Source: Nitrospinota bacterium (GTDB lineage: Bacteria; Nitrospinota_A; UBA7883; JACRLM01). From it: 64,000 nucleotides of DNA. Shown here piece after piece: positions 32,385-52,968 of this stretch. Location: positions 146,420 to 210,419 of the forward strand of contig JACQXA010000002.1 of NCBI GenBank assembly GCA_016208975.1, given 5' to 3'. A program made the position numbers and the translations under genes. Numbering within the stretch: the stretch's first letter is position 1; each line of letters begins with the position of its first letter. Under the pieces are notes generated by a model, which did not search any database, was not told the origin of the DNA, and worked only from the letters and a program-made list of their open reading frames with translations.

Positions 32385-33782
32385 ATGAAGTTCCATTTTG
32401 TCACCGTGGTGTGGGGCGAGGAATATACCGCCCATTTTCTTAACCGTTGCCTGCCAAACCAGCTTACGCCCGGCAACCTCCACGCTTTTAAAGACACCGG
32501 CGGCGCACTCTACAAAATATACACCACCAGAAAAGACGCCGGATCAATCGAAAACAGTGAAAATTACAAGCGGGTAAAATATATATTACCTGTTAGCCTG
32601 AACATCATGGACGAAGACTCCCTGGAAAACATCGCCGGGGACGAAAAATACCGGAAGACCATAGACCTTATGAACAGTCTCCATGGCAGGGCCATTAAAG
32701 AAGCCAACGCGGACGACGCGGCCATTTTCATCCTCACACCGGACGCGCTGTGGTCCGAAGGGGCCTTTTCAAAAGCGCGGGACATTGTGAAAGGCGGCAA
32801 GCGCGTGGTGCTCCTGCCACAGCTAAGAGTGGCCCAGGAAACCTTCCTGCCCGAATATGAAAGGCTGTTTGGCGCTGGCAATGGCGGTTGTCCCGCCCCG
32901 GCGCGGGAACTGACAAAGCTGGCTCTGGCGCACATGCACCCATATACGAAAACGTTTTATGTGGACTCGCCAAATTTCTCCACGGAATTCACCTGGTATC
33001 TTTTCTGGCGCGCCGGGGAAAGCGGGCTCGTCGCCCGGTGCCTTTATTTCCACCCGTTCCTGATTTATCCAAAAGTGAAGGACGCGGTTCCCATGGTGGC
33101 GGTGGACCATGATTACCCCGCCATGGCCGTGCCCGAATATAAGGATTATTACTTCGTCAAGGACTCCGACGAGATCGCCGGTTACGAGTTCAGCCCCGCT
33201 GGAAAGCTGGCGGAATTCATTTCGCCGGGGCAATTTAATGAGCGGGATTTTACATGGAACGCGCTGGCGCGGTACTCCCGGCCTTTAAACAGGAAAATGC
33301 TACTTAACCCGATTGTGGCGCACGGCGGCGAGGTTACGCGGGAATTCATGGAGGCGCGGGAGGAGTCCGGCAGGATAGCTCGCAGGCTGGTGGCGATGTT
33401 CGAGCTGGCCCAGCGTTATAAGAACTGGCAGGAGAAGCCGCGCCCCAGGAATATGGACCATGTGAAACGCGTGGTGATATTCGGGAGCGGCTCTGGCGGG
33501 CGGAAAATGATCCCAGTCGCGGCAAGGCTCGGCTGGAGCGTTGCGTACATTGTGGATAATGACAGCGCCCGGTGGGGCGGCGTAGTGGACGGTTGTGGAA
33601 TAAAAGGGCCAGACGCCCTTGGTAGCGCGGATTACGATTTGATAATGGTTTCTTCCGGCCCGGGCCGCGAGGGCATTTTCGCGCAACTTTATGGGCTGGG
33701 TTATAAATATGGGCGGGATTATATTTATTACCAGGACACGGTGATAGTTGGCGGCGAGTTAATATCCCTTTTTGATTATTAA
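32385..33782 (+). CDS. MKFHF-family protein 3 with C-terminal Rossmann domain
   Basis: 465 residues, same architecture as 29838-31268. N-terminal MKFHFVTVVWGEEYTAHF, CLPNQLTPGNL; LTPDALWSEGAF; RELTKLALAHMHPY; DSPNFS; FWRAGESG; VKDSDEIAGYEFSP. The Rossmann domain begins at about 362 (RVVIFGSGSGGRKM, YIVDNDSARWG, DLIMVSSGPGREGIF, YKYGRDYIYY). Its last lines (YGRDYIYYQD) closely match the domain inserted in the AsnB-like protein encoded convergently next door, which suggests recent exchange. The stop overlaps the convergent stop at 33779. Confidence 0.75.
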   Translation: MKFHFVTVVWGEEYTAHFLNRCLPNQLTPGNLHAFKDTGGALYKIYTTRKDAGSIENSENYKRVKYILPVSLNIMDEDSLENIAGDEKYRKTIDLMNSLHGRAIKEANADDAAIFILTPDALWSEGAFSKARDIVKGGKRVVLLPQLRVAQETFLPEYERLFGAGNGGCPAPARELTKLALAHMHPYTKTFYVDSPNFSTEFTWYLFWRAGESGLVARCLYFHPFLIYPKVKDAVPMVAVDHDYPAMAVPEYKDYYFVKDSDEIAGYEFSPAGKLAEFISPGQFNERDFTWNALARYSRPLNRKMLLNPIVAHGGEVTREFMEAREESGRIARRLVAMFELAQRYKNWQEKPRPRNMDHVKRVVIFGSGSGGRKMIPVAARLGWSVAYIVDNDSARWGGVVDGCGIKGPDALGSADYDLIMVSSGPGREGIFAQLYGLGYKYGRDYIYYQDTVIVGGELISLFDY

Positions 33783-36031
33783 GGGCGCTTTGGCCGTTTG
33801 GCCAGAAAAGCCCGCCCAAGAACGTGTGTTTGCAGATACGGCCAGAACTGGCCCACCTGTTTTAAGTCCCCCTTTTTGTACGCTTCGTTAACAGCCCTGC
33901 GGATGGCCTGCCCGTCCCACACCTGCGATTCTAAAAACATTGCGCTGTTAACGGTATCCAGCGCGAAAGGTTTCAACGGGCCCGCCAGCCATTGGGCCAT
34001 CGGGTTGGCAAACCCCACCTTCGAAGGCCGCGTCCGGATGCTTTCGGGAAGAACTCCGCGCATGGCCTCCCGCAGGACCAGTTTTGTAAAACCATCTCCA
34101 ACTTTGCGCCCCTCCGGTAGCGAGAACGCGTAGCGCACAAGTCTCCAGTCCATAAACGGCGCGCGTATCTCCACCCCGTGCGCCATGGAAACCCTGTCGA
34201 AATTGCGCAAGATGGTCGGCAGGCGGGTAAAGTGGAAATCATCGTACAGCCTGCGGTTAAGAACGCCCATGCCCTGGAGAATCTTCATGTCGTCATCGGG
34301 TATATCTCTTGCGTAGCGCTCCGGCTTTCTAATAAGCCACGGGTTGGGATAAACCGGGGATTTAAAATAATCTTTCGTAACCATGATTTCAGAACTGGCG
34401 GAATAAATATCGTCCTGATAGTAGATAAAATCCTTTCCGTAAATGAAACCCGACTCGTGAAGGCTGTTAAATATCCCTTTCTTGCCCGGCGCGGAGGCCA
34501 CAATTATCAGGTCAAAATCCCGGCCCGGCAATATTGCCGGGTCTTTAATTTCGAGCCCCTCCAAAGCGGATCCCCACTTGCCCTTATCGTTATCCACGAA
34601 ACAAACCACTTCCCACCCACGGCTTTCCGCAAGGCGTAAGGCGGCGGCGCCTCCTTGCCCCGAGCCGAAAATAACCACCCGCCGGACGTTATCGCCAACA
34701 ACCACTGTGGCGGGGTGGTTGCTGTTGGCGTAATATTCCAGGGTTTTTGAACTTCGCTCCGCATAATCCGGAAAAACGCTTCGGACACCAGGCGGATACA
34801 TGCCGGTAAGGATTGTCCGTAGCTTCTCATACCGGGTCGGGTCCGGTTGCGGCAGGATATGGCTGTCCATCAGCTCTTCCACGTGATGGTGATAGCCAGC
34901 CAGCAATTCATCACCGCCGTGCCCGTCTATGGAAACGCGCAGGCCATCTTCCCGCATTCTGCGGTATAACAGCCACGCGGAGGCGGGCAGGTCGTAAATC
35001 TCCTCGAAACCGGACAGGATTTCATCCAGCAGGCATATTCCCCCCAGCGGGTCTATCTCCTCGAAAACGGCGGGAGCCCCGGTGTGGCGAATGACATCTT
35101 CGGCGAATGGGCGTTCGTCCTGCGGCGTGGCGGGGAACGAAGCCACAAAAGCCTTCGGCCGCCGCTCCGGTCCTCCTCCGCCTTTCCATAACGAGCAGAA
35201 GATGGAGCCGGAATCCAGCCCGCCGCTTAACGCGGCCCCGATGGGCACGTCGCTCCGTGTCCTTATCCCGCACGCGTCGAAAAACAGTTCCCGGAACTTT
35301 TCTACCTGCTGTTGAGGCGTGGAAGGGGGCGCATAAAGATGCTCCAGCGTGTTCCACCATCTGGATACCCTGGGCGGATAGCCTTTCATTATCGTAAGGC
35401 AATGGCCGCCCATGAGCCTTTTCACGCCCGTTAAAAGACAGTCCTCCGAGCCTTCGATGCTGTTATAGTCATTCAAGGCGCGGGCCACTATTCGCGGGTC
35501 GTAAACCGGGTTGAACCACTCCAGGGCCAGAAACGCTTTCATCTCGGAGGCGAAAGCGAATCGCGCTCCGTCATAAAAATAATGGAGAGGTTTTACGCCG
35601 AACCTGTCCCGGGAGAGAAACAGCTTCCTCTCCCGGCTGTCCCATATGGCCAGCGCCCACATCCCGTTGAAATGGGTCTGGCAGGCCTCGCCCCACTGCG
35701 CGTAAGCCGCCAGAACCACCTCCGTGTCCGACGAGCTTTTGAAACGATGTCCCAGCCCCTCCAGACGTTCCCGCAATTCAGGGTGGTTATATATCTCGCC
35801 GTTGAAGGTTATGGTATAGCGTCCATCCAGGTAAGACATGGGCTGTTTGCCGGCGCCGGAAAGGTCGATAATGGCCAGCCGCCGGTGACCAAGGCTCAAG
35901 CGGGCTTCCGCGTCGCGGTAAACCCCGCGCCCGTCCGGGCCGCGGTGGGCGAGGCTGTCGGTGAACGCGTCCATATCGGCGGGGGAGATGTCCCGCCCGT
36001 CAAGATTCCATACGCCGGTTATTCCGCACAT
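33779..36031 (-). CDS. asparagine-synthetase-like amidotransferase with inserted Rossmann domain
   Basis: 750 residues, about 100-130 longer than typical AsnB. Glutaminase: Cys2 in MCGITGV, HRGPDG, FNGEIYN. Synthetase: SGGLDS at 269-274 and GHGGDE at 370-375. Residues about 449-545 are a foreign Rossmann domain (VVIFGSGQGGAAAL, FVDNDKGKWG, DLIIVASAPGKKGIF, YGKDFIYYQD), then synthetase motifs resume with LPTILRNFDRVSMA at about 604. AsnB-like enzymes in polysaccharide loci amidate uronic acids using glutamine nitrogen; that is the likely role. The insertion may regulate the enzyme or localise it with MKFHF proteins. Confidence 0.86.
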   Translation of the reverse strand: MCGITGVWNLDGRDISPADMDAFTDSLAHRGPDGRGVYRDAEARLSLGHRRLAIIDLSGAGKQPMSYLDGRYTITFNGEIYNHPELRERLEGLGHRFKSSSDTEVVLAAYAQWGEACQTHFNGMWALAIWDSRERKLFLSRDRFGVKPLHYFYDGARFAFASEMKAFLALEWFNPVYDPRIVARALNDYNSIEGSEDCLLTGVKRLMGGHCLTIMKGYPPRVSRWWNTLEHLYAPPSTPQQQVEKFRELFFDACGIRTRSDVPIGAALSGGLDSGSIFCSLWKGGGGPERRPKAFVASFPATPQDERPFAEDVIRHTGAPAVFEEIDPLGGICLLDEILSGFEEIYDLPASAWLLYRRMREDGLRVSIDGHGGDELLAGYHHHVEELMDSHILPQPDPTRYEKLRTILTGMYPPGVRSVFPDYAERSSKTLEYYANSNHPATVVVGDNVRRVVIFGSGQGGAAALRLAESRGWEVVCFVDNDKGKWGSALEGLEIKDPAILPGRDFDLIIVASAPGKKGIFNSLHESGFIYGKDFIYYQDDIYSASSEIMVTKDYFKSPVYPNPWLIRKPERYARDIPDDDMKILQGMGVLNRRLYDDFHFTRLPTILRNFDRVSMAHGVEIRAPFMDWRLVRYAFSLPEGRKVGDGFTKLVLREAMRGVLPESIRTRPSKVGFANPMAQWLAGPLKPFALDTVNSAMFLESQVWDGQAIRRAVNEAYKKGDLKQVGQFWPYLQTHVLGRAFLAKRPKRP

Positions 36032-36037
36032 GCCCTG

Positions 36038-38443
36038 TTACCGCTTGAATGAATATCTGGCGAAAGAAGCAAGATCGGCTAACGCGGCTTTCGCTTCAAG
36101 CCTGGAATTTATCCGGCCTATTATTCTGTCCGACTCCAGTTCCGCGGTTTCCCAGTCCGTTTGGCCATCTTTCACCCGCATGTAGTATTTATGGTGTGAA
36201 TAGCGGCGGTGGTCCGCCCCATGGGCGTTTAGACGGAAACGATTGACGCTGGCAAGGTCTGGTTCGCAATAAGACGCATCAGCGTCCACCAGCCTCAAAA
36301 GCAGAATGTCGTCCGAATCCGTGATGAACTCAACATCGGAGGCTTTTGGGGCCGTGTCATAATACACATCCGTATCCACATCTTCAGGGTCCAGCTTATT
36401 CCAATCCAGGTAGCTTACGGACCTTGGCCATATTAGCAGGGGGAGCCAATCGTAACTGCGGACCAGCATTCCACAGTCCCCGGCTTTCCAGAAATGTTTC
36501 AATCGCGCGGGTGAAACGCCGTAACCGCCGCCGCTTTTCCACCGTATCGCTCCGGATGGATGTCGAAGCGCCAGTTTCGCCAGCCGCCTGGAGGAATTGT
36601 CCGGATTTCCGTCCTTGCCCATAAGCGCCCGGGAAAAATCCCCGTCAACCGGGACATCCGGCGCAAGGGCCAGATATTTTTTCCCACGCGCCGCCATCTC
36701 GTAAAGCTTCGGGAAAGTTCCGTCGGATAGAATGATGTCCGGGGCCAGCATGACCAGCGCCGCCCTGGTTTCCGCCGCCTTCATGATAGCCGTCCGTTGG
36801 AACATCGCTCTGGCGCGCCGGAGCTCATTGTGCGGTATCCGTTCGAATCCCCCTGTTGAAATGGATACCGGCAGGATTTTCGCCAGCCTGTTAAACGCGG
36901 GTGAATTTTTGATCCCCTCCGCCAACTCATCCGGCGCGAACAGGGTGTAGCTGACCTCCGGGAAATCCTGTAGCGACGGAAGATTTTTCATGGAAAGGTG
37001 GCAGGGTAGCGCGACACCCGTGTAAAGTCCGGCCTCCCGTTCCGTCATTACCATTGTGGCGATGTTCAACGGCGTCAGGCGCTCCTTCGCGGTAGCCAGG
37101 GGAACTCCGGCGCGCCTTGGCCCCCGAAGCCGTTCCAGGATTAATTCATGGATCCGCCCGCACCGTTTGATGGGGGTGTGGTCTCGAAGGGTACGTTCCT
37201 GCCCGGCCCTGGCTATTTGTTCGCGAACGGAGTCATGCTCCAGGAGGTACGCGGCTTTTTCCTCGCATTCGCCCAGCGACGAATATGTGACAATCTCGCG
37301 ATCCTTATCGAACAGGTCGGCCATGTTGGTTCCGTCATCGGTCAGCAGGCACGCGCCCACGCCAGTGGCCTCGAACATCCGCATGTTGCCCACCTCGCCA
37401 TCCGCGGCCACGGTATGGATGTTCAGGGTTACCCTAGACCGCGCCAGGACCCGGTACATATCCATACCGAAAACGGCGTCCCGGCATTTATCCGGATACA
37501 GGTCTCTTAAACATTTGGATGGCGCTATGGCGTTTACATGACCCGAGCCGTTGTTACCGGCGTTCAATGCGCCCCGAGCCATTTTTATAAGCTCGATGCC
37601 TGCATTGCTGGCAACCTTGCCTTCAAATGAAACCAGCCGCCTCAAAAAGGTTTCGCCGACTCTGTTCAAACCCCCTTGCGCAAGTATTTTCGAGATCCGG
37701 CTGATATGTTCAACGAAAGACGGATCCGGGGCCGACCGGCCCATTTCCCAAACTTGAAGATCTGTCCGCTCCAGCAAATCCGAAAGCATTTTATATCGCG
37801 ACCAATGGGTTTCAGGCATGGCCGGGTATGAACAGCCGGACGAGCCGATGAAAGAAAACCCGATGTCCCTTATGGTGTCCTGGGCGTCAAGCCTGGCCAA
37901 AACAGACTGGTCAAAGGAATGGTAGATTACGTGGGACTGTATGCCGTTTGCGTGCAATTGCCTTTTCAGTTTCGGCGCGCCTACGATTATCAGATCGTAA
38001 TATTGACATTCGCCGGGCGGGATAAGAAAGCTTAAATTGAGGGCCACAAGCCTTACGAATGGAAACCGGCTTAAAAAGGTTTTTTGAATTTCCTCCGGAA
38101 ACAGATTCCCCCCTTGGTAATAGACCACATCCGGTTTGATGGACTCGATCTGCCCCAGAAGGATCTCATGCCGCCAATTGCGGGGTTCATAAGGAAATCC
38201 GTTTTCCCTCGCCCAGGTCTCCTGGGCGATTTTAGCGTCGTAAACGATATCGGACGCCTCGTTCCCCAGCGCGCGCATGGCTTTTGAAAAACTGTCGGAA
38301 TAAAACAGGCCCTGGGCGAATAGGGCGCGCATCTGCTCTTCGTAGGGCTTGTTTTCCAGCCCCGGATTGTTTTCATACACCCCTTCGATGGCCAAGGGAT
38401 AATGGCCCATCGGGGCGATTCTCAAAATGCGGTAATTATCCAT
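36038..38443 (-). CDS. CgeB-type glycosyltransferase fused to MKFHF-family domain
   Basis: 801 residues. Residues 1 to about 440 are a GT-B-like glycosyltransferase of the CgeB (glyco_trans_1_2) kind: VVYYQGGNLFPEE, SFIGSSG, and the donor-binding MRMFEATGVGACLLTDDGTNM followed by HTPIKRCGRIHEL. After a linker, about 460-790, a divergent MKFHF-like domain appears: LAPDIILSDGTF, ARGKKY, RRLAKLALRHPSG, LIWPRS, DVDTDVYY, FITDSDDILLL. Linkage to a glycosyltransferase supports a glycan role for the family. It is 6 bp upstream of the AsnB-like gene and divergent from the oxidoreductase gene. Confidence 0.78.
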   Translation of the reverse strand: MDNYRILRIAPMGHYPLAIEGVYENNPGLENKPYEEQMRALFAQGLFYSDSFSKAMRALGNEASDIVYDAKIAQETWARENGFPYEPRNWRHEILLGQIESIKPDVVYYQGGNLFPEEIQKTFLSRFPFVRLVALNLSFLIPPGECQYYDLIIVGAPKLKRQLHANGIQSHVIYHSFDQSVLARLDAQDTIRDIGFSFIGSSGCSYPAMPETHWSRYKMLSDLLERTDLQVWEMGRSAPDPSFVEHISRISKILAQGGLNRVGETFLRRLVSFEGKVASNAGIELIKMARGALNAGNNGSGHVNAIAPSKCLRDLYPDKCRDAVFGMDMYRVLARSRVTLNIHTVAADGEVGNMRMFEATGVGACLLTDDGTNMADLFDKDREIVTYSSLGECEEKAAYLLEHDSVREQIARAGQERTLRDHTPIKRCGRIHELILERLRGPRRAGVPLATAKERLTPLNIATMVMTEREAGLYTGVALPCHLSMKNLPSLQDFPEVSYTLFAPDELAEGIKNSPAFNRLAKILPVSISTGGFERIPHNELRRARAMFQRTAIMKAAETRAALVMLAPDIILSDGTFPKLYEMAARGKKYLALAPDVPVDGDFSRALMGKDGNPDNSSRRLAKLALRHPSGAIRWKSGGGYGVSPARLKHFWKAGDCGMLVRSYDWLPLLIWPRSVSYLDWNKLDPEDVDTDVYYDTAPKASDVEFITDSDDILLLRLVDADASYCEPDLASVNRFRLNAHGADHRRYSHHKYYMRVKDGQTDWETAELESDRIIGRINSRLEAKAALADLASFARYSFKR

Positions 38444-43488: not shown

Positions 43489-44220
43489 ATGGCAATAGAC
43501 GTGGATAAACAGCGGGGGATACTGGAAGGCATTTCACGCCACTATAACGTTTACGAGGGGTTCGACCGGCGGCAGAACGAAGTGGTGGGGGAAATGATGG
43601 CCGAGCGCGTCCGCGGCAAAAGGACCCTGGAATTGGGATGCGCCAACGGGCTCATCACGGGGATGTTGCTTAAAACCGCCGCCGCGCTGGACGTGGTGGA
43701 CGGCGCCGGAAAATACATCGCCGAGGTGACCGCCAAATACGGTCCGGCCATAAGCGCGCATGTATCCCTTTTCGAGGAGTATGATCCCCCCTGCAAATAC
43801 GAGGCGGTGGTCTTCGCCAACACCCTGCATCACATCCATGCCCCGGAGGCGTTGCTGGAAAGGATACGCGGATGGGTGGCGCCCGGAGGCAGGCTGTATA
43901 TAACCGCGCCCAACATGCTTTCCCTTCACAGGCGTCTGGGAGTGCTGATGGGGAAGCTTAAAGACACCCATGACGCGACCGAGCGGAACCTGGCCTTCGA
44001 CCAGCCGGGGCGCTATACCAAGGCCAGCCTTATTGCCCAGCTGGAACGGGCGGGGTACCGTGTAGTGGAGTGCCATGGATTTTTTCTAAAGCCGTTCAGC
44101 CACGCCCAGATGGAAACGCTGGATCCTTCGCCGGAGCTTATGAAAGCCCTCTGCCAGATGGGCAGGGAACTGGAAGAGTACGCAAGCCTTATTTTCGCCG
44201 AAGCGGAGCCTTTAAGATGA
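43489..44220 (+). CDS. class I SAM-dependent methyltransferase, at the head of the phosphoramidate-like block
   Basis: 243 residues. Motif I LELGCANGLITGML, motif II VVDGAGKYIAE, motif IV AVVFANTLHHIHAPEALL, then GGRLYITAPN. Its stop overlaps the start of the PEP-synthase-like kinase by 4 bp. In Campylobacter jejuni two methyltransferases (Cj1419, Cj1420) lie next to the matching kinase gene and are proposed to O-methylate the phosphoramidate. By position this protein is the best candidate for that role here; sequence similarity was not computed. Confidence 0.82.
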   Translation: MAIDVDKQRGILEGISRHYNVYEGFDRRQNEVVGEMMAERVRGKRTLELGCANGLITGMLLKTAAALDVVDGAGKYIAEVTAKYGPAISAHVSLFEEYDPPCKYEAVVFANTLHHIHAPEALLERIRGWVAPGGRLYITAPNMLSLHRRLGVLMGKLKDTHDATERNLAFDQPGRYTKASLIAQLERAGYRVVECHGFFLKPFSHAQMETLDPSPELMKALCQMGRELEEYASLIFAEAEPLR

Positions 44221-46667
44221 AACGGCTGGCCAGGCGGATGGACCGTGGGGCAAGACCCGGAGAGACTGTGGCTGAATTCCGCTTCGGAACCAAGGCCGAA
44301 ACCCTGGAGCGCCTGCAAAGAACGCTTAGCGGCGCGGTTGTGCCGGAATTCTTTTATTTTGACGCCGACGCCTGGAAAACAGGATGGATGGACATAATCC
44401 GGCGAGCGCCATCTGTTTCCGGGGGCGGGAAAATAATAATCCGCAGTAGCGCCGCCGGTGAGGATGGGGCCGCCCGCTCTATGGCTGGCGCATATTTAAG
44501 CGTGGCGGATGTGGATCCGCAAGACGAGACGGCTGTGAAAAAGGCCATCGCCCGGGTTATCGCTTCGTACAAGGGGAACGGCGGCCAGGTGATCGTCCAG
44601 CGCATGGCGCTGGATATAGCGGTAAGCGGCGTAATCATGACCCGGAGCGTTACAGACGGCGCGCCATACTATGTCCTGGATTACGATGATGTTTCGGGAA
44701 AGACCGACGTGGTAACCGGCGGTATCGGCGCGCACAAAACGGTTTACGTTTACAGGGGATCGGCCCACTCGGCCATAAAATCGCCCCGGGTGGCGGCGAT
44801 GGTGGATCTGGCCAGGAAGGTGGAGGCCGTCTGCGGAGAGACGCCTCTGGATATAGAATTCGCGCTGGGCAATGATGGTACCCAATTCCTCCTCCAGGTC
44901 CGCAGGATAACCTCTGAACATCATTGGCGGGCCCATACGGCGCGTGATGTGGCCCAAAGCCTTTCGGGCCTGGAGGAATTCGTGGCCGGACGGTCAGCGC
45001 CCCGGCCCGGCCTTTCGGGCTCGTCCACGGTGTTCGGCGTCATGCCGGACTGGAATCCCGCAGAACTGCTGGGCGACGCTCCGGCGCCTCTGGCCATTTC
45101 CCTGTTCCGCTGGCTGATAAGCGATGAGGTATGGAGAAAGGCCAGGGAGCTTATGGGCTACAAGCGCCTTCCTGAAGAAGAGCTTATGGTTACCCTGTGC
45201 GGCCGTCCCTATATAGACGTGCGTAATAGCCTGAATTCCTTTCTCCCCGCCGGTCTTGACGGAAAATTTGAGAGCGCCCTTGTGGACGCGTGTCTTGCCC
45301 GGCTCTCCGAAAGCCCCGAGCTTCACGACAAGCTGGAGTTCGAGGTGGCCCTGACCGTCCTGGATTTTGATTTCGAAAGGGAAACAGCCGCGTGGTATCC
45401 GGATGTGTTCACAGGCGGCGGTAAAATGCGGTTCCGCGAAAGCCTGCGCGCGCTTACGAACAACGCCCTTGACCTGGGCCATGGGGGCACGTTGCCGGAA
45501 TTCATCAGCCAGGCCATGAAGCTTGAAGCCATGCGGGATGGCGGTGACCGGGCGCTTGAAAAAAACGGAGACTCCACCGAACTGCTTGGCCAGGCGCTAA
45601 AACTGCTGGATGAGTGCCGGATATATGGCACGCTTCCATTTTCATCCATAGCAAGACATGCGTTCATCGGCGAAAAACTTTTAAAATCGGCGGTGGCCAG
45701 GGAGGCGCTTGACGCAGGAAGGGTGGCTGGGTTCAAAAGATCCATCCGCACCGTATTCAGCGAGCTTTCCCGCGATATGGCCAAGATCTCCCGGGGTGGC
45801 GCTTCCCTGGATGGTTTCATGCGCCGCTATGGACATTTGCGGCCAGGGGCGTTCGATATCACCTCCAGCCGTTACGCCGATATGCAGGAGATGTTTATCA
45901 ACGGGGAATTGGCGGCCCCGGCGGAAAACGGGGCTTTTACGCTGACTGCGCGGGAAAGCGGGGCCATTGGAAGCCTTCTGGCCGAAGCCGGGATAAATTC
46001 CGCAAACCCCGCCGGGCTTTTGGAGCACGCCAGGCTTTCAATCCAGTGGCGGGAACGGGCCAAGTTCCTCTTCACAAAGAACCTTTCGGATGCTCTGGAG
46101 CTCTTCGCCGCCTGGGGGGAGCGCCAGGGATTGTCCAGGGAGGACACGTCATTCCTGACCGTCCGGGAGATGGAGGAATTCGCGGCGCGCCCCGGCTCCA
46201 TCGGGGCTTCAACGTTGCGCGAAGTGGTTGACAGCAGAAGGGCCGGGAAGGATCTTTTCAAAACGGTCAAGCTGGGATATTTAATAAGGAACATCAGCGA
46301 CCTGCGCGTCTCTCCCGTGTTACGGAGCCGTCCGAATTTCATAACGGAAAAAAGGGTGTCGGGTCCGGTGGCGCTGATAGAAAAGATACCGGAAGACACA
46401 AGGAACATCGCCGGGAAAATAGCCCTCGTTAAAAACGCCGACCCTGGGTACGACTGGATATTCACCCGTCGCATTAAGGGGCTTGTGACAAAATACGGCG
46501 GGGCCAACTCTCACATGGCCATCCGGTGTGTGGAGATGAACCTTCCCGCGGCCATAGGTTGCGGTGACGAGATTTTCGCAAAACTTGCGGCCAGCGGTTA
46601 CGCGGAGTTGAATTGCGATGAGAAAACCGTGCGCCCTGCGATAGTGGGAGATTATGACGGAGCTTAG
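44217..46667 (+). CDS. PEP-synthase-like glutamine kinase candidate (Cj1418-like)
   Basis: Start ATG 44217 (ATGA overlap, GGAG 8 nt upstream); the frame is open further upstream inside the methyltransferase. 816 residues. N-terminal ATP-grasp of the PEP-synthase/PPDK type (IIIRSSAAGEDGAARS, Arg76), with FLLQVRRI closing the nucleotide domain. A long helical middle follows. The C-terminal swivelling domain has KYGGANSHMAIR with the phospho-carrier His766. No PEP-binding domain is evident. This is the layout of Cj1418, which phosphorylates the amide nitrogen of L-glutamine with ATP, and of other His-swivel kinases. The following genes favour Cj1418. Confidence 0.84.
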   Translation: MKRLARRMDRGARPGETVAEFRFGTKAETLERLQRTLSGAVVPEFFYFDADAWKTGWMDIIRRAPSVSGGGKIIIRSSAAGEDGAARSMAGAYLSVADVDPQDETAVKKAIARVIASYKGNGGQVIVQRMALDIAVSGVIMTRSVTDGAPYYVLDYDDVSGKTDVVTGGIGAHKTVYVYRGSAHSAIKSPRVAAMVDLARKVEAVCGETPLDIEFALGNDGTQFLLQVRRITSEHHWRAHTARDVAQSLSGLEEFVAGRSAPRPGLSGSSTVFGVMPDWNPAELLGDAPAPLAISLFRWLISDEVWRKARELMGYKRLPEEELMVTLCGRPYIDVRNSLNSFLPAGLDGKFESALVDACLARLSESPELHDKLEFEVALTVLDFDFERETAAWYPDVFTGGGKMRFRESLRALTNNALDLGHGGTLPEFISQAMKLEAMRDGGDRALEKNGDSTELLGQALKLLDECRIYGTLPFSSIARHAFIGEKLLKSAVAREALDAGRVAGFKRSIRTVFSELSRDMAKISRGGASLDGFMRRYGHLRPGAFDITSSRYADMQEMFINGELAAPAENGAFTLTARESGAIGSLLAEAGINSANPAGLLEHARLSIQWRERAKFLFTKNLSDALELFAAWGERQGLSREDTSFLTVREMEEFAARPGSIGASTLREVVDSRRAGKDLFKTVKLGYLIRNISDLRVSPVLRSRPNFITEKRVSGPVALIEKIPEDTRNIAGKIALVKNADPGYDWIFTRRIKGLVTKYGGANSHMAIRCVEMNLPAAIGCGDEIFAKLAASGYAELNCDEKTVRPAIVGDYDGA

Positions 46668-47277
46668 GATAGGCGTTACAACACGGGAGACCCGCCACGC
46701 GGCAAGCGGTGATACGAGGGACGCCATAAGCCGCGATTGGGCGGGGTTTATCGGCGCGGCCCTGCCGGAAGCGTTGTGGATGCCCGTGCCGAACGTGGGC
46801 CCCACCGCGCGGGAATACGCCCAAAGATGGGGGCTTAACGGTTTCATATTCACCGGCGGGGAGGATTACACAGGGCGATCGGTCAGAGATGTAACTGAAA
46901 AGGGGCTTCTTGAGCTGGCGCTGGAAAATAAATATCCGGTCTATGGCGTGTGCAGGGGGATGCAATTCTTCCAGATATATTTTGGCGGGAGTCTTGTGGA
47001 GTGTCCTGGCCGGTCGCACGTGTCCGCCCGCCACGCGGTGACTTTCGTCAACACAGGCAAAGAGGAGCGCGCCACGGTGAATTCTTTCCACAGATGGGGG
47101 ATGAGGGCCGATGGGCTCGCTCCGGCGCTGAAACCTTTCGCTATCACGGACGACGGTTTTGTGGAGGGGGTCAATGCGCCGGATAACAGGCTAATGGCCA
47201 CAATGTGGCACCCGGAAAGGGAATCCCCTTTCGCAAGGGGCGATATTGGACGTTTGCAGGCTCTGTTCCTATCGTGA
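46654..47277 (+). CDS. class I glutamine amidotransferase / gamma-glutamyl hydrolase (Cj1417-like)
   Basis: 207 residues, overlapping the kinase by 14 bp. Peptidase C26 features: FIFTGGEDY, GVCRGMQFFQ with nucleophile Cys100, NSFHRWGM, and MWHPERE with His186 and Glu188. All three triad residues are present. In Campylobacter, Cj1417 of this family cleaves CDP-L-glutamine to cytidine diphosphoramidate and glutamate. The position directly after the kinase and before the nucleotidyltransferase matches that pathway. Confidence 0.86.
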   Translation: MTELRIGVTTRETRHAASGDTRDAISRDWAGFIGAALPEALWMPVPNVGPTAREYAQRWGLNGFIFTGGEDYTGRSVRDVTEKGLLELALENKYPVYGVCRGMQFFQIYFGGSLVECPGRSHVSARHAVTFVNTGKEERATVNSFHRWGMRADGLAPALKPFAITDDGFVEGVNAPDNRLMATMWHPERESPFARGDIGRLQALFLS

Positions 47278-48050
47278 ACACAAGGACGCTTAACGCTGTT
47301 ATTCTGGCCGCTGGCAGGGGCTCCCGAATGGGGGAAGTCACCGTGGACACGCCCAAATGCCTGGCCTCCATCGGCGGCAAGCCGATGCTTCAATGGCAAA
47401 TGGCCGCCCTGAGGGAAGCCGGAATCGGGAAGATATCAATTGTGACCGGTTACAAGCGGGAAAAGCTGGAGGCATACGCGGGGGATAGTGTTGGTTTTTA
47501 TCACAATCCCCGCTGGGCGGAAACGAACATGGTCAGCAGTCTTGTAACCGCGAGCTCCGTTTTATCGGGGGATGGGTGCGTGGTCAGTTATTCGGATATC
47601 GTATATCATCCCTCCGTCATAAAAACGCTGATTGCGGCGGAGGGGGATGTATGCGTCACATACGACACCCAATGGCTGGAACTGTGGGGGATAAGGTTCC
47701 CAGATCCGCTGGAGGACGCGGAAACCTTCAGGGAAGAGGGCGGCCGCCTGCGGGAGATCGGCGGTAAACCGGCCAGCCTTGAACAAATAGAGGGGCAATA
47801 CATGGGCCTTCTGAAATTTACGCCAGCCGGATGGCGCGGGGTTTCGGGCGCTTTAGCGGCCCTGCCGGAAGACCGCCGCGGGAAAATGGACATGACATCG
47901 CTTTTAAGCCATCTTCTCAGGCTGGGAATCCCGGTGGAAACCGTGGCGGTGCGGGGCCGGTGGCTGGAGGTGGACAGCGTCGGCGATATCATCGCCTACG
48001 AGAAGAAACTCGCTGGCGCAGACACATTCAGCCATGACTGGCGCTGGTGA
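47274..48050 (+). CDS. NTP-transferase (CTP:phosphoglutamine cytidylyltransferase candidate, Cj1416-like)
   Basis: Start at GTG 47274 (GTGA overlap with the amidotransferase stop); a longer frame from 47205 would read into the previous gene. 258 residues of the LicC/MobA-like fold: AVILAAGRGSRMG, DTPKCLASIGGKPML, YSDIVYHP (metal-binding Asp) and WLEVDSVGDI near the end. In the Campylobacter pathway this family joins phosphoglutamine to CMP, releasing pyrophosphate. A phosphocholine or sugar substrate is the alternative; neighbours favour the former. Confidence 0.84.
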   Translation: MNTRTLNAVILAAGRGSRMGEVTVDTPKCLASIGGKPMLQWQMAALREAGIGKISIVTGYKREKLEAYAGDSVGFYHNPRWAETNMVSSLVTASSVLSGDGCVVSYSDIVYHPSVIKTLIAAEGDVCVTYDTQWLELWGIRFPDPLEDAETFREEGGRLREIGGKPASLEQIEGQYMGLLKFTPAGWRGVSGALAALPEDRRGKMDMTSLLSHLLRLGIPVETVAVRGRWLEVDSVGDIIAYEKKLAGADTFSHDWRW

Positions 48051-48916
48051 CACACGAAATGTTTAACAAGATGATCGGTACGATTGAAAGCGCCATCACC
48101 GGGGCGCGGGAAGCCCTTGACGCGCATGGGGCCGCCACACAGGGTGATCTTGTGGAACACGCGGCGGCGCTTATGAAAATGGCGGCCGAGCTGGTGGATC
48201 TTTCAAACACGGCCAAGTACCGGGCGTATAAAGCGCTTCTTCCAGATGGCGTTGACGGGTATAAACCATACTCCACACCGTACTTGGCCATGATCAAAGA
48301 TGTGGAGAACCAGGTGCGCCTCCAGAATGAGGAGTATGGAAAATACAAATATTTTTTCGGCCAGCCGTATCAGGCCTTCGCAACGCTGGGAATATTCGGC
48401 GCCAGGGACACGGAGACAAGATACCGGGAATATGGTCTCGGCGGCATGGTGTCGCCGCATCATCGCGTGCTGGACATAGGGGCCAGTTGCGGTTTCATGT
48501 CAATTTACACCGCGCTGATGAATGGTTGCCGCGCCGACTGTGTGGAGCACAATCCGTATATGGTAAAAATCGGCGAGATAGTCGCCGGTTACCTCGGCCT
48601 CACCGGGAAAATGCGGTTCTTCGCCACGGACGTGACCGGCTGGGAGCCGGATTGCCGCTACGATGTGGTTTTCAGCTTCGCCTCCCATCACACCGATGAT
48701 GGAGGGCACAGCCCGGTCTTGCGGGACTACATGAAGCGGTTGTGGTCACTGCTTGTCCCGGGTGGCGCGCTGGTTTTCGAGGGGCACTGCGCCGATTATG
48801 GGAACGGGGTGTTTTACAGGGATCTCGAGGAAAACCGTGATTTGTTCAGCTGGAGCGGCTCGCGCCGGTTCCCGCAGTCGAACCGGGAACTGTTCATAAT
48901 GAGGCGCAATGGCTGA
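48047..48916 (+). CDS. class I SAM-dependent methyltransferase with helical N-terminus
   Basis: 289 residues from GTG 48047 (overlaps the previous stop); ATG 48059 is an alternative. The first about 120 residues are helical (AAALMKMAAELVDL). SAM motifs: VLDIGASCGFMSIYTA, CVEHNPYMVKIGE, YDVVFSFASHHTDD, then GGALVFEGHC. It is the second methyltransferase of the phosphoramidate-like block, again similar in placement to the Cj1419/Cj1420 pair. It may methylate the phosphoramidate or the carrier sugar. Confidence 0.82.
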   Translation: MTHEMFNKMIGTIESAITGAREALDAHGAATQGDLVEHAAALMKMAAELVDLSNTAKYRAYKALLPDGVDGYKPYSTPYLAMIKDVENQVRLQNEEYGKYKYFFGQPYQAFATLGIFGARDTETRYREYGLGGMVSPHHRVLDIGASCGFMSIYTALMNGCRADCVEHNPYMVKIGEIVAGYLGLTGKMRFFATDVTGWEPDCRYDVVFSFASHHTDDGGHSPVLRDYMKRLWSLLVPGGALVFEGHCADYGNGVFYRDLEENRDLFSWSGSRRFPQSNRELFIMRRNG

Positions 48917-50072
48917 GCCCGGTTTTTCGCTGGAATGGCCCCTGCGGCCTGAATGGATAAAATCCACGGCCCCCGTCATTCAGCAGACGCGCGCCAGACC
49001 CGCCATGCCGAATGTAAACCGGGTGGCGTTCGCCATGCACAACACCGAGCTGATCAACCACTATGGCCCCATCATGCGCAAGCTTGCGCCTGCGGAATAT
49101 GACATTGTGTACGTTGCGGCCAATGAAGCCGAGCGCCGGGAGATGGAATCATTCGCGCAAGGGCTGGGGTGCAACGCCGTCCCGGCCGCGCTGGCGCTTT
49201 CCGAAGGGCGTGTTTATGACGCGGCGGTGGGCGTGCATTACGGCTCCGCGGGAACGGCGCCGGATGGGGCGCCGGCCCTCTTCCGGCTGGCCGTAACCCA
49301 GATTCGCCTGATGTACAGCATCGGTAAAGACGCATGGCTGTTTTCGGACGATAATTATCATTACAACATCATCCTTTGTTTCGGCCCTTATCACCTGAAC
49401 AACTTGTTGCCGTTCACGAACGCCAAAAAAGTGTCCGTGGGATACCCCAGGTTCGACAATTTCTTCAATAATCCCCCGGACAGGGCGGCGGCGCTGAAAA
49501 GCATGGGACTGGACCCGGCGCGCGAAACAATAGTGTGGCTTCCCACCCACGGAGCCTTGTGTTCCGTAAGGGAATTCGCAAAAGCGATCGGTGAATTGTC
49601 CGGAGAATACAATGTGGCGATAAAACTCCACCCGCTTACCGCCGTTAGCGACCCGGCGTCCATCGCCGCGCTTGAGGAAGCCGGTCTTAACAATTACTTT
49701 TCCGGAAGCTTCGACAACAGCAACTTGTTCTCCATAGCGGATTACGTTATCGCCGATTACGGCGGCTCCTCCTTCGGCGCCATATATACCGGCAAAAATC
49801 TTGTTCTTCTCGATGTGGCCGCGGCGGCTGGCAACGAAAATATCACCGGCGAATCATCCAGCGTCGAGCTTCGGCGATGGTTCCCCCATTACGGAGCCGG
49901 TGAAGCGGATAAAATAAGAACCGCCCTGCAAAATAAAACGCTCTGGAGCGGACAGGCCAAGACCAGCGCGGCGCTTCGGGACAGGTTCTTTGCGCCCCAT
50001 TATGGTTTTTCTTCGGATGTCGCCGCGATGGCCATAAGAAATCACAGGAAGATAACCGGCGCGGAAAAATAG
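48909..50072 (+). CDS. CDP-glycerol glycerophosphotransferase-like GT-B protein
   Basis: 387 residues, overlapping the methyltransferase by 8 bp. GT-B-like second half: VSVGYPRFDNFF, TIVWLPTHG, VAIKLHPLT, and VIADYGGSSFGAIYTGK, which parallels the D-Y/S-S-S...E-A motif of TagF-like glycerophosphotransferases that use CDP-linked donors. In this operon the expected donor would be a CDP-linked phosphoramidate, so this protein is a candidate phosphoramidate transferase. Campylobacter uses other transferases (Cj1421/Cj1422), so this would be a different solution. Confidence 0.75.
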   Translation: MAEPGFSLEWPLRPEWIKSTAPVIQQTRARPAMPNVNRVAFAMHNTELINHYGPIMRKLAPAEYDIVYVAANEAERREMESFAQGLGCNAVPAALALSEGRVYDAAVGVHYGSAGTAPDGAPALFRLAVTQIRLMYSIGKDAWLFSDDNYHYNIILCFGPYHLNNLLPFTNAKKVSVGYPRFDNFFNNPPDRAAALKSMGLDPARETIVWLPTHGALCSVREFAKAIGELSGEYNVAIKLHPLTAVSDPASIAALEEAGLNNYFSGSFDNSNLFSIADYVIADYGGSSFGAIYTGKNLVLLDVAAAAGNENITGESSSVELRRWFPHYGAGEADKIRTALQNKTLWSGQAKTSAALRDRFFAPHYGFSSDVAAMAIRNHRKITGAEK

Positions 50073-50084
50073 ACAGGCGGAAGA

Positions 50085-50600
50085 ATGGTTATATGGATAG
50101 TGGGCCTTTCGGGGTCGGGTAAAACCTCCATCGGGCGTGAGGTATATTCCTTGTGGAAGGAAAAGGCGCCCAACACCGCGCTTGTTGACGGTGACGAGAT
50201 AAGGGAGGTTTTCGGCGCCCGGGGCGAGGCGGATTATTCTGTGGAGGGGCGCGAAAGAAACTCAAACCGCGTGGCGGCCCTTTGCGCCTGGCTCGACAGG
50301 CAGGGGATTAACGTCGTGTGTTGCATCCTGTCCATCTTTGAGGATAGAAGAAAAAAGAACCGCGCCGGTTATTCTTCATATTTCGAGGTGTTTGTTGACA
50401 CCCCCTTTCCGGTCATCCTTCAGCGGGACACCAAGGGCCTTTATGCCCCGGCCATGCGGGGCGAGATAAAAAACGTGGTGGGGGTGGACATACCTTTCAC
50501 TCCCCCCGCCGCGGCGGATCTCCGGATAGACAATAGCGCGGATAAAACCTCTTATCGTGATGACGCCGCGCTTATTCTGGCCAAGGCTGGCGTGATGTAA
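50085..50600 (+). CDS. APS-kinase-like CDP-phosphoramidate kinase candidate (Cj1415-like)
   Basis: 171 residues. Walker A GLSGSGKTS (7-15), VDGDEIRE, ERNSNRVA, CILSIFEDRRKKNR, then FVDTPFPVILQRDTKGLY. Database annotation would usually say adenylylsulfate kinase, but no sulfate adenylyltransferase is nearby. In Campylobacter, Cj1415 (same size) phosphorylates the 3'-hydroxyl of cytidine diphosphoramidate. A sulfotransferase lies at 51856-52839, so a true PAPS-making role cannot be excluded. Ribosome-binding-like GGCGGAAG precedes the ATG. Confidence 0.85.
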   Translation: MVIWIVGLSGSGKTSIGREVYSLWKEKAPNTALVDGDEIREVFGARGEADYSVEGRERNSNRVAALCAWLDRQGINVVCCILSIFEDRRKKNRAGYSSYFEVFVDTPFPVILQRDTKGLYAPAMRGEIKNVVGVDIPFTPPAAADLRIDNSADKTSYRDDAALILAKAGVM

Positions 50601-51146
50601 ATGCCGTACATTTATTCCACGGGCGGCATGCCCGAAACAAAGATGCAGTATTCCTATTCCCCTTTCCTGGGGATCGGCTTTCTCCATGACTGGTTCAAGG
50701 ACAGGGATAACGCCCTGGAATATCTTGGCGGCGTTTCACCGGGGCAGTCCCCATCCGCCGGAGACATTTTCGGGGGCATTAAAAAGGGGCTGGGCTCAAG
50801 CTCCATCAAGGAGGCGGAGGCCGCGCGCGAAAAGCTGGCCACCCTGGTCAAGCGGTTTGAAGTGACCAAGCGGATATATTCGGCCTATAACGGCGAACTG
50901 CGCCCGGTGGACACTCAGGACTTCATGGGGCTGGGTAATTATGCAAGTTTCGCGGAGACTCTCATAGCCGCGCATGAAATTACCGGAAGCCTGGTGTATC
51001 TGAACGCATTGCTAAAATGTGTGGATATCCTGTGCGCGGCCCGGGAGCGGATTGGGGATCAGCTTAAGGGCAGGGTGGCGGCTGTCATCAGGGAAGAAAG
51101 GGCGCGTGTGCTGGCTGTCTGCGCCCGTCATGGGACACCGTTATGA
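50601..51146 (+). CDS. unknown 181-residue protein
   Basis: Begins directly after the stop of the kinase gene with no gap and ends in a 4-bp overlap with the formyltransferase. Predicted mainly helical from residue 68 on (KEAEAAREKLATLVKRF, ALLKCVDILCAARERIG). A Tyr-rich N-terminus (YIYSTGG, YSYSPFLGIGFLHDWF) recalls a small-molecule binding surface. No family recognised. The tight placement implies a function with the phosphoramidate-like or formylation step. Confidence 0.65.
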   Translation: MPYIYSTGGMPETKMQYSYSPFLGIGFLHDWFKDRDNALEYLGGVSPGQSPSAGDIFGGIKKGLGSSSIKEAEAAREKLATLVKRFEVTKRIYSAYNGELRPVDTQDFMGLGNYASFAETLIAAHEITGSLVYLNALLKCVDILCAARERIGDQLKGRVAAVIREERARVLAVCARHGTPL

Positions 51147-51865
51147 ATTTACCGGGAGTGGTTTTTCTGGCCGGCAGGACCGTCAGGGCGCAGGCATACG
51201 CCCAGGCCATGGCCCGCGCGGGGATGAAACCGGAATGGGCCTTTGTATATGGCGCCGAAAGCTCCGTTACAGTTCCACCCTCTTTGCCGCAGGCTGGGCC
51301 GCCGACTGGTCTGCCACTTCCGGATCTTTCCGTGCCGCTGGAGGAAACGGCGGCGAACGCGGGCTGGCGGATTCATGAAACCGTGGCCGGGAACGTCAAT
51401 GACCCCGCCATTCTGGATTTCCTTAAACGCGTAAGGCCAGCCCTTGTCATATATGCGGGTTACGGCGGACAGATAGTGGGTGATGAGGCGTTGTCTGTAG
51501 CCCCGTTCATGCACGTCCATTCGGGGAACCTGCCGGAGGAGCGGGGGAGCACCACTGTCTATTACGGTATTTTAAAGGGAACCGGCGTATGGGCCAGCGC
51601 CATTTTGCTGGAGCGGAAAATAGACACCGGCCCGGTTCTTTTAAAGGCGGAATATCCGCTTCCGCCAGCGGGGCTTGATATAGACCGACTTTACGACCCG
51701 GCCATCCGGGCCGATTTATTGTTGAAAGCGCTGAGGGAATACGCGGCCAGGGGGCATTTGCCGGAAGGGGTTAGACAGGAGCCGGATTGTGGCGAGGATT
51801 ATTATGTGATACATCCCGTGTTAAAACATATTGCGGCGCTTTCCATCAACAAACCTCAGCTATAG
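51143..51865 (+). CDS. formyltransferase-like protein (FMT N-terminal fold)
   Basis: 240 residues. The formyl-THF binding and active-site region is MHVHSGNLPEERGSTTVYYG followed by ERKIDTGPVL. Typical enzymes have NxHxSLLPxxRG with a catalytic Asn-His-Asp; here the Asn position is His (HVHSG) while the His and the Asp of IDTG are kept. Related enzymes N-formylate amino sugars such as Qui4N in O-antigens. With the aminotransferase upstream, N-formylation of an amino sugar is likely, but a phosphoramidate nitrogen is a speculative alternative. Overlaps the convergent sulfotransferase by 10 bp. Confidence 0.78.
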   Translation: MNLPGVVFLAGRTVRAQAYAQAMARAGMKPEWAFVYGAESSVTVPPSLPQAGPPTGLPLPDLSVPLEETAANAGWRIHETVAGNVNDPAILDFLKRVRPALVIYAGYGGQIVGDEALSVAPFMHVHSGNLPEERGSTTVYYGILKGTGVWASAILLERKIDTGPVLLKAEYPLPPAGLDIDRLYDPAIRADLLLKALREYAARGHLPEGVRQEPDCGEDYYVIHPVLKHIAALSINKPQL

Positions 51866-52839
51866 CCCATGGCGGTTATGTATTCGCCCAGTTCTTTTTC
51901 CATGTAGCTTCTCGCCTTGGGCTCCAGGCTGTTTTCCCAATTGTTCACCTGATCAATGGATAAGTTCACTCCGCCGCCGGAAGGGTAGGGATACCCCGAT
52001 TTATCCACGCCGATAGCTTCGGCTATTACGCCGAACCACTCATCCCACGCCTCCCGGCCGGAAGCTATTTCCTCCAGCTTTATTTCCATGTAATAGTTCG
52101 ACTTCAAATCCACCTTTGAGCGCAAATGGAACCACCGCCGGTAAACCGGCTTTAGTATATATTCGCAAACGTCCTCCACCTTGTCCGGAGCCCATGGCAT
52201 ACGCATAAGAGAATAGGCCACGCCTCGCGGATCCCTCTTGATGTGGATGAAAGCGCAGTCCGGAAAAAGTTCATAAAGAAAATCAATGTCCAGTATGTTG
52301 TGCGGCGTCTTTTCGCACCAGGTCTTTTTCCCCGCCTTTTTCGTGGCGGCCATAAACACGTTATCCACGAACCTTGCGGCGTGGGCGGTTAATTCGCCCC
52401 TGTCCGGGAAATACGCGGGGAGTGTCCATAAAATGGAGGACTTCTGCGATGGATGATAAAAATTAACGCCCAATGGCGGAATACTTCTGACAAACTGCGC
52501 ACCGCGAAACTTGGAGACAAATTCATCCAGTTCCCGCAGATAAACGGGCAGGTCCACATATTGTTCCACGCAATGCGCCCCCCACCGCTCCGAAAAGCTG
52601 TCCGTAAGCTGGCGGCGCAGGAAGTGGTCGAACTCCCGCGCTACGTCCCTTGCCCTTGTGAAGGAGTATGAAACCGTAAGCGCGTCCACCAGATCTTTCA
52701 GTCCATGGGAGTCTATGATGAACCGCGTTTCAGTTGGAATGGCGTAAACCTCAGGGTGCGTTCCGATAAGGTAATTCATTATGGATGTGCCGGAACGGCC
52801 CGTGCCGCCCACGAAAATGCGCTTGGGAGTTACATACAT
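51856..52839 (-). CDS. sulfotransferase (PAPS-dependent type)
   Basis: Start chosen at ATG 52839, preceded by AAAGGAAATGTA (ribosome-binding site); the frame continues to 52926 with no such signal. 327 residues. VGGTGRSGTSIMNYLIG is the 5'-phosphosulfate-binding loop, IKRDPRGVAYSLM the 3'-phosphate-binding segment. It likely sulfates a glycan at the membrane-proximal assembly site. Base composition is a little less GC-rich than the neighbours. No complete PAPS pathway is seen in the window. Confidence 0.85.
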   Translation of the reverse strand: MYVTPKRIFVGGTGRSGTSIMNYLIGTHPEVYAIPTETRFIIDSHGLKDLVDALTVSYSFTRARDVAREFDHFLRRQLTDSFSERWGAHCVEQYVDLPVYLRELDEFVSKFRGAQFVRSIPPLGVNFYHPSQKSSILWTLPAYFPDRGELTAHAARFVDNVFMAATKKAGKKTWCEKTPHNILDIDFLYELFPDCAFIHIKRDPRGVAYSLMRMPWAPDKVEDVCEYILKPVYRRWFHLRSKVDLKSNYYMEIKLEEIASGREAWDEWFGVIAEAIGVDKSGYPYPSGGGVNLSIDQVNNWENSLEPKARSYMEKELGEYITAMGYS

Positions 52840-52968
52840 TACATTTCCTTTTGCACCAAGTGCATTCAGGTTTATCGAAAGCTCATGGCTATACACACTG
52901 GCCAGATAAATACTTGATGAAATCAATACAACTAAGCGAACAAAGCATGTTGCGCCGTTGGATCAATT

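Follow-up and report, generated by a model that had tools for sequence, protein, structure and literature searches.

A predicted phosphoramidate-donor operon in a Nitrospinota bacterium, with related modules across bacteria and archaea

Introduction

Bonds between phosphorus and nitrogen (P-N) are considered unusual in living systems. It is established that the Campylobacter enzymes Cj1415-Cj1418 make cytidine diphosphate (CDP)-phosphoramidate and its 3'-phosphate (Taylor, Raushel and colleagues, 2017-2019, as cited in PMC10919079 and PMC6429109). Here we analyze a 64,000-nucleotide stretch of a Nitrospinota genome (contig JACQXA010000002.1, positions 146,420 to 210,419; hereafter the window), which carries a plus-strand operon of nine genes, P0001-P0009, at window positions 43489-51865. 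We consider it very likely, by homology to the Campylobacter enzymes, that this operon would make (3'-phospho-)CDP-phosphoramidate and attach phosphoramidate, perhaps not O-methylated, to a surface glycan.

O-methyl phosphoramidate (MeOPN) is described as common to several Campylobacter species, 13 of 30 strains of the genus carrying the genes (PMC3907429), and a 2022 review terms the glutamine kinase 'C. jejuni-specific' (PMC9561416). Phosphoramidate lacking the methyl group is chemically documented outside Campylobacter, in the lipopolysaccharide of Xanthomonas campestris and Shewanella (PMC3907429), and the Xanthomonas core bears a phosphoramide group (PMC8042644). No report of the gene module across other phyla was found in the open literature, a search whose reach excluded most subscription papers.

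Results

The core enzymes group with those of Campylobacter MeOPN synthesis

Campylobacter and Helicobacter reference genomes were traced with the NCBIfam hydrolase model NF045546. Two of the resulting loci, L133 and L134, keep the Cj1422-Cj1415 order (transferase, two methyltransferases, kinase, hydrolase, nucleotidyltransferase and a protein resembling adenylyl-sulfate (APS) kinase), and the L134 proteins match NF058596, 'O-methyl phosphoramidate transferase' (680 bits, cut-off 600), NF045546 (315 bits, cut-off 250) and, for the kinase, PRK05849 (1105 bits). Because of this gene order and the L134 matches, the two loci are good stand-ins for Cj1415-Cj1418. The window shares with C. jejuni (EC 2.7.3.13 glutamine kinase and its partners) homologues of all four enzymes, their order of kinase, hydrolase, cytidylyltransferase and then 3'-kinase, and their catalytic and family-specific residues; it differs in sequence (~22-38% identity) and in two genes inserted before the 3'-kinase. 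An initial annotation had placed these four genes on the plus strand with sizes near those of the Campylobacter set, and all four are indeed present, the L134 counterparts measuring 777, 199, 258 and 171 amino acids (aa). The catalytic residues it had named, the kinase carrier His766 (within NSH) and the Cys100, His186 and Glu188 triad of the C26-family hydrolase, are exact.

Homology assigns P0002 to the Cj1418-type glutamine kinases. Its PRK05849 score is 813.8 bits against a cut-off of 501, phosphoenolpyruvate (PEP) synthase models give at most 54 bits, and the only domains found in it are an N-terminal PPDK_N (PF01326) and a C-terminal mobile carrier domain (PF00391) that contains His766. 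A Pfam search of P0002 did not find PEP-utilizers_C (PF02896), the PEP/pyruvate domain, which occurs in two other proteins of the same genome. Among 100 columns that are conserved across 59 further module kinases, P0002 matches 96 and the Campylobacter and Helicobacter rows 95-96, compared with 35 for Escherichia coli PpsA and 28-36 for five paralogous kinases. In the kinase tree a branch of length 4.59, with support of 99, separates all module kinases, those of the window and Campylobacter included, from PpsA-type proteins; the L011 outgroup row in this tree is a long-branch artefact. A PEP synthase identity for P0002 was rejected on the missing PF02896 domain, the tree and the conserved columns.

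For the hydrolase P0003, NF045546 is the best of all NCBIfam models, at 79.4 bits against 35.4 for the next (a lead of 44 bits). P0003 and the Campylobacter proteins form one clade apart from PuuD-like proteins (support 84-88), on which ground a PuuD identity was rejected, and P0003 matches 20 of 20 conserved columns. The intact triad, the adjacency to the glutamine kinase and membership of the Cj1417-type clade support the prediction that P0003 works like gamma-glutamyl-CDP-amidate hydrolase, with tree support weaker than for the kinase.

The nucleotidyltransferase P0004 matches all 29 family columns, as does Campylobacter, compared with 15 of 29 for GlmU, and aligns with the L134 protein over nearly its full length (34.6% identity over 246 residues, E 1e-51). 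Its alignment with LicC (1jyk) is confined to residues 4-96 (93 residues, E 2e-11). The tree, from which LicC is absent, groups P0004 with the Campylobacter proteins and away from GlmU, and a GlmU identity was rejected on the tree and the columns.

The APS-kinase-like P0007 scores above the PRK05541 cut-off (156 versus 127 bits) and below that of the CysC model TIGR00455 (111.9 versus 138.7 bits). Thirty-eight module kinases, including those of Campylobacter, and 31 CysC-type proteins lie on opposite sides of one branch with support of 94, and the separate canonical CysC of the same genome, which also encodes an ATP (adenosine triphosphate) sulfurylase elsewhere, falls on the CysC side. Residues Y51, Y99, V131, V132, F138, D145 and N150 are common to P0007 and Campylobacter; the corresponding CysC residues are F, F, F, T, Y, E and T. 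Positions invariant in CysC are altered in P0007 (Pro to Ile at 84, Thr to Val at 132, and a changed DGDN). The model score, the tree and these residues led us to reject a CysC identity. The trees of kinase, nucleotidyltransferase and APS-kinase-like protein thus join each to its Campylobacter MeOPN counterpart and separate it from PpsA, GlmU or CysC, respectively; the grouping with PEP synthase and true CysC that would have refuted the initial annotation was not seen. The genome's own CysC gene (L171, G000:C4:1281000-1297000) lies between a flippase-like gene and radical SAM (S-adenosylmethionine) genes. Neither cysN nor cysD was matched in the stretch retrieved around it, and this CysC possibly feeds a sulfated glycan.

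Layout of the operon

The genes are listed in Table 1. Junctions from P0001 through P0006, and that of P0008 and P0009, overlap by 4-14 base pairs (bp), that of P0001 and P0002 by 4 bp; a gap of 12 bp precedes P0007 and one of 0 bp precedes P0008. The single overlapping run that the initial annotation described thus holds for most junctions and fails at the APS-kinase-like gene. Nor is the interval 43489-50600 a module of the four enzymes only, since it opens with a SAM methyltransferase gene and holds P0005 and P0006 before P0007.

Table 1. Genes of the operon and its convergent neighbor, with window coordinates
Gene and predicted product	Position	Strand	Basis
P0001, class I SAM methyltransferase	43489..44220	+	Pfam Methyltransf_23, E 3e-12
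P0002, L-glutamine kinase, Cj1418 type, 816 aa	44217..46667	+	PRK05849, domains, conserved columns, tree
P0003, gamma-glutamyl-CDP-amidate hydrolase, Cj1417 type (C26), 207 aa	46654..47277	+	NF045546 as best NCBIfam match, tree, conserved columns
P0004, phosphoglutamine cytidylyltransferase, Cj1416 type, GTG start	47274..48050	+	NTP_transf_3, conserved columns, tree
P0005, SAM methyltransferase with helical N-terminal part	48047..48916	+	Pfam Methyltransf_25, co-occurrence
P0006, TagF-fold (CDP-glycerol glycerophosphotransferase-like), candidate phosphoramidate transferase	48909..50072	+	PF04464 E 7e-7, predicted structure
P0007, CDP-phosphoramidate 3'-kinase, Cj1415 type, APS-kinase fold, 171 aa	50085..50600	+	PRK05541, tree, residues
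P0008, helical protein of unknown function, translationally coupled to P0009	50601..51146	+	family of 16, each in a locus that has the Fmt-like gene
P0009, formyltransferase-fold protein, H124-x-H126, D161	51143..51865	+	weak Formyl_trans_N match
P0010, sulfotransferase-family protein, convergent with operon, membership of the system uncertain	51856..52926	-	Sulfotransfer_3, E 4e-19

Upstream of the operon the run continues with genes for a radical SAM protein, a FemAB-like protein, a DegT-type aminotransferase and an oxidoreductase, and the remainder of the window, judged by eye, is a glycan biosynthesis region. Farther upstream, on the opposite strand, this region encodes large proteins at 36038-38443 (-) and 33779-36031 (-), one of them an asparagine-synthase-like amidotransferase that starts MCGITGVWN.

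The module recurs in more than 20 phyla

A scan of 84,980 GTDB genomes yielded 451 candidate kinase relatives, of which the 80 best loci were retrieved. In 73 of these 80 the retrieved stretch contains the kinase, hydrolase and nucleotidyltransferase genes, and in 52 the three are adjacent, which excludes chance co-location; a gamma-glutamyl-type hydrolase is found within the fetched stretch in 76, and an APS-kinase-like gene in 41. The loci cover more than 20 bacterial and archaeal phyla, including Woesearchaeota, Nanobdellota and haloarchaea. Distance matrices of the three core proteins correlate (r 0.62-0.68, with none of 999 permutations as high), and the three proteins have therefore largely travelled together. 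A sample not selected for the kinase contained it in six of 385 genomes, the window's own among them, and all six also gave an NF045546-like hydrolase.

The initial annotation expected such genes to be annotated piecemeal, and the records of relatives do carry separate, unrelated enzyme names. On the Vibrio alfacsensis plasmid pYa108 the trio is labelled 'PEP-utilizing enzyme', 'gamma-glutamyl-gamma-aminobutyrate hydrolase family protein' and 'phosphocholine cytidylyltransferase family protein', and is followed by a 'CDP-glycerol glycerophosphotransferase family protein'.

Two further observations concern particular hosts. Alteromonas ponticola (L019, 3893-4693, -), Pseudomonas viridiflava (L087, 6533-7852, +, directly upstream of the kinase) and a member of Defluviitaleaceae (L077, 2013-4349, +) each have a flagellin-like gene close to the module, which suggests phosphoramidate on flagellin glycans in some hosts. 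In taxonomic family f48 (G064 and relatives), probably Helicobacteraceae, 46 of 119 sampled genomes carry a curated gamma-glutamyl-CDP-amidate hydrolase, and the Campylobacter-type pathway seems to be common there too.

Tailoring and transfer genes differ from those of Campylobacter

Beyond the donor enzymes the window locus departs from C. jejuni: no Cj1419-Cj1422-type genes were found in it, and it adds P0008, P0009 and the TagF-fold P0006. Clustering of neighboring genes separated two flavors of module locus, one with a Cj1419/1420-type methyltransferase (27 loci, nine of them with Sulfotransfer_3) and one with a formyltransferase-fold gene (26 loci including the window, 16 of them with a P0008 relative). 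The two never co-occur (Fisher p 2e-5; median p 0.06 after relatedness correction). P0005 relatives were found in six other module loci, five of which have the Fmt-like gene.

In the loci that were compared, genes related to P0008 and P0009 either overlap or lie next to each other. Mapped onto the kinase tree, P0008-type genes require a minimum of 13 gains or losses, so that their link with the module is recurrent. Among the 385 genomes P0008 relatives occur in only two, both kinase-positive and one the window's own. P0008 has no Pfam or NCBIfam match; its predicted structure (predicted local distance difference test score, pLDDT, 85) gave nothing significant with Foldseek against the PDB (E 0.14 or worse), and a second structural comparison reached Z of up to 9.7 to alpha/alpha-barrel sugar 2-epimerases, a value within the helical background range. 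The profile matches of P0009 in the PDB are formyltransferases. In formyltransferases such as PurN and Fmt, catalysis depends on an Asn, a His and an Asp. P0009 shares the fold of sugar N-formyltransferases and methionyl-tRNA formyltransferase and two of these three catalytic positions (His and Asp); it differs from them in the P0008-type neighbor, present in 16 loci, and in the replacement of the catalytic Asn by His (HxH for NxH in 17 of 17 aligned homologues), and plain formyl transfer is therefore not assured.

A sequence profile search with P0006 returned no significant PDB chain. Its predicted structure (pLDDT 82) is closest to TagF (Z 24.1, 3.7 Å over 327 residues) and then to TarL with CDP-ribitol (Z 20.5). 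As these teichoic acid polymerases transfer a phospho-alcohol from a CDP-activated donor, P0006 is the best candidate for the transferase; its sequence identity to them is ~15%.

A second type of candidate comes from the 3'-phosphoadenosine 5'-phosphosulfate (PAPS) route, in which CysC is paired with a sulfotransferase. P0007 has the APS-kinase fold and would likewise add a 3'-phosphate to a nucleotide donor, although P0007-type proteins form a separate branch with CysC-invariant residues changed. Sulfotransfer_3 genes occur in 12 module loci (L018 12589-13770, L114 4565-5776, L115 13478-14722 and nine others; several have an R-D-P-R-A motif), 11 of which also have the 3'-kinase (Fisher p 0.004; not significant after relatedness correction). 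It is a reasonable idea that these proteins are phosphoramidate transferases using the 3'-phosphate in a PAPS-like manner. The window's P0010 did not cluster with this set. Because neither the exclusion of the two flavors nor the link of Sulfotransfer_3 with the 3'-kinase is significant after relatedness correction, both are kept as leads only. Profile comparison did not support a distant relationship of the Campylobacter MeOPN transferases (DUF2972) to sulfotransferases (hhalign probability 1%, with a DUF2972 profile of only two sequences).

Discussion

The putative pathway would begin with P0002, which, with ATP and its carrier His766, would phosphorylate L-glutamine on the amide nitrogen of the side chain. 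P0004 would then couple the phosphorylated glutamine to the cytidine monophosphate of cytidine triphosphate (CTP), giving gamma-glutamyl-CDP-amidate, from which P0003 would remove glutamate through Cys100, His186 and Glu188 to leave CDP-phosphoramidate, and P0007 would place a phosphate on its 3' position. Homology to the characterized Campylobacter enzymes makes these four steps a well-supported proposal. Tailoring and transfer are more speculative: the P0008/P0009 pair, perhaps with a methyltransferase (P0001 or P0005), may modify the donor or the product, and either P0006 or the convergent P0010 may move the phosphoramidate onto a sugar. The 'MeOPN-like' donor module of the initial annotation is accordingly borne out at sequence level for the phosphoramidate donor genes and not for the tailoring and transfer genes, which are unlike those of Campylobacter, so that 'MeOPN-like' is better read as 'phosphoramidate'.

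Several observations weigh against a phosphoramidate donor and its transfer to a glycan. Specificity for glutamine, CTP and CDP-NH2 is not readable from sequence. P0003 falls short of the curated NF045546 cut-off (79.4 versus 250 bits), as do other module hydrolases outside family f48 in the 385-genome search, and its identity to the Campylobacter protein is just 22-27%. Roughly half of the related loci yielded no 3'-kinase, and the final donor may therefore differ among loci. P0001, P0005 and four other open reading frames of the window gave no match to the Cj1419/1420-family methyltransferase profile, and no Cj1421/1422-type transferase was found at the locus; the MeOPN transferase model NF058596 likewise found no match in the whole genome, a model that does match L134 but whose family is carried by no control genome.

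The most probable alternative, which we nevertheless regard as unlikely, is that the product is O-methyl phosphoramidate exactly as in Campylobacter, with P0001, P0005 or both as O-methyltransferase and P0006 as transferase. The operon does hold two SAM methyltransferase genes, P0001 overlaps the kinase gene much as Cj1419 precedes Cj1418, and P0005 relatives recur in module loci; set against this are the failed Cj1419/1420 profile matches, the finding that this family, in its 27 loci, never stands beside the Fmt-like gene (a merely suggestive exclusion, at the median p given above) and the fact that glycan loci commonly have methyltransferases.

Somewhat less probable again is that the donor is as proposed but is used for something else than a surface polysaccharide, such as a lipid, small molecule or flagellin glycan. 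Bacteria do have small molecules with P-N bonds (PMC6429109), and flagellin-like genes lie beside the module in the three loci named above; the window, however, is dense in glycan genes (a sugar aminotransferase, dehydrogenases, radical SAM proteins and a gene resembling uridine diphosphate N-acetylglucosamine epimerase), and no natural-product core enzyme was seen next to the operon. We think it improbable that the kinase acts on an amide other than that of glutamine to yield a different CTP-activated P-N compound: the family is old and diverse (30-50% identity) and its sequences do not decide the substrate, but the conserved residues are common to the Campylobacter enzyme (95-96 of 100 columns) and the gamma-glutamyl-type hydrolase accompanies nearly all of the loci. 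That four housekeeping-type enzymes (PEP synthase, peptidase C26, phosphocholine cytidylyltransferase and APS kinase) cluster here by chance is very improbable, for although relatives are automatically annotated with these names and the PRK05541 family, to which P0007 belongs, bears the title adenylyl-sulfate kinase, P0002 lacks the PEP/pyruvate domain found elsewhere in the genome, canonical CysC and ATP sulfurylase are encoded elsewhere, co-occurrence is conserved across bacteria and archaea, and the trees contradict it.

Returning to a phosphoramidate donor for a surface glycan, we tentatively suggest, as a conjecture somewhat short of even odds, a second, undescribed branch of this chemistry in which P0008 and P0009 would replace the Cj1419/1420-type methyltransferases, a TagF-fold enzyme would carry out transfer and the phosphoramidate would be differently capped, the decoration being general among prokaryotes of many phyla. 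What is new here is the breadth of the module, which is not peculiar to this organism, and its different tailoring and transfer genes; the module also points to a new candidate enzyme pair, P0008/P0009. If the proposed function is correct, the present names of hundreds of genes (PEP-utilizing enzyme, gamma-glutamyl-gamma-aminobutyrate hydrolase, phosphocholine cytidylyltransferase or adenylyl-sulfate kinase) would have to change, and phosphoramidate glycans would be a widespread, overlooked surface chemistry of free-living bacteria and archaea, relevant to recognition of the cell by phages or hosts.

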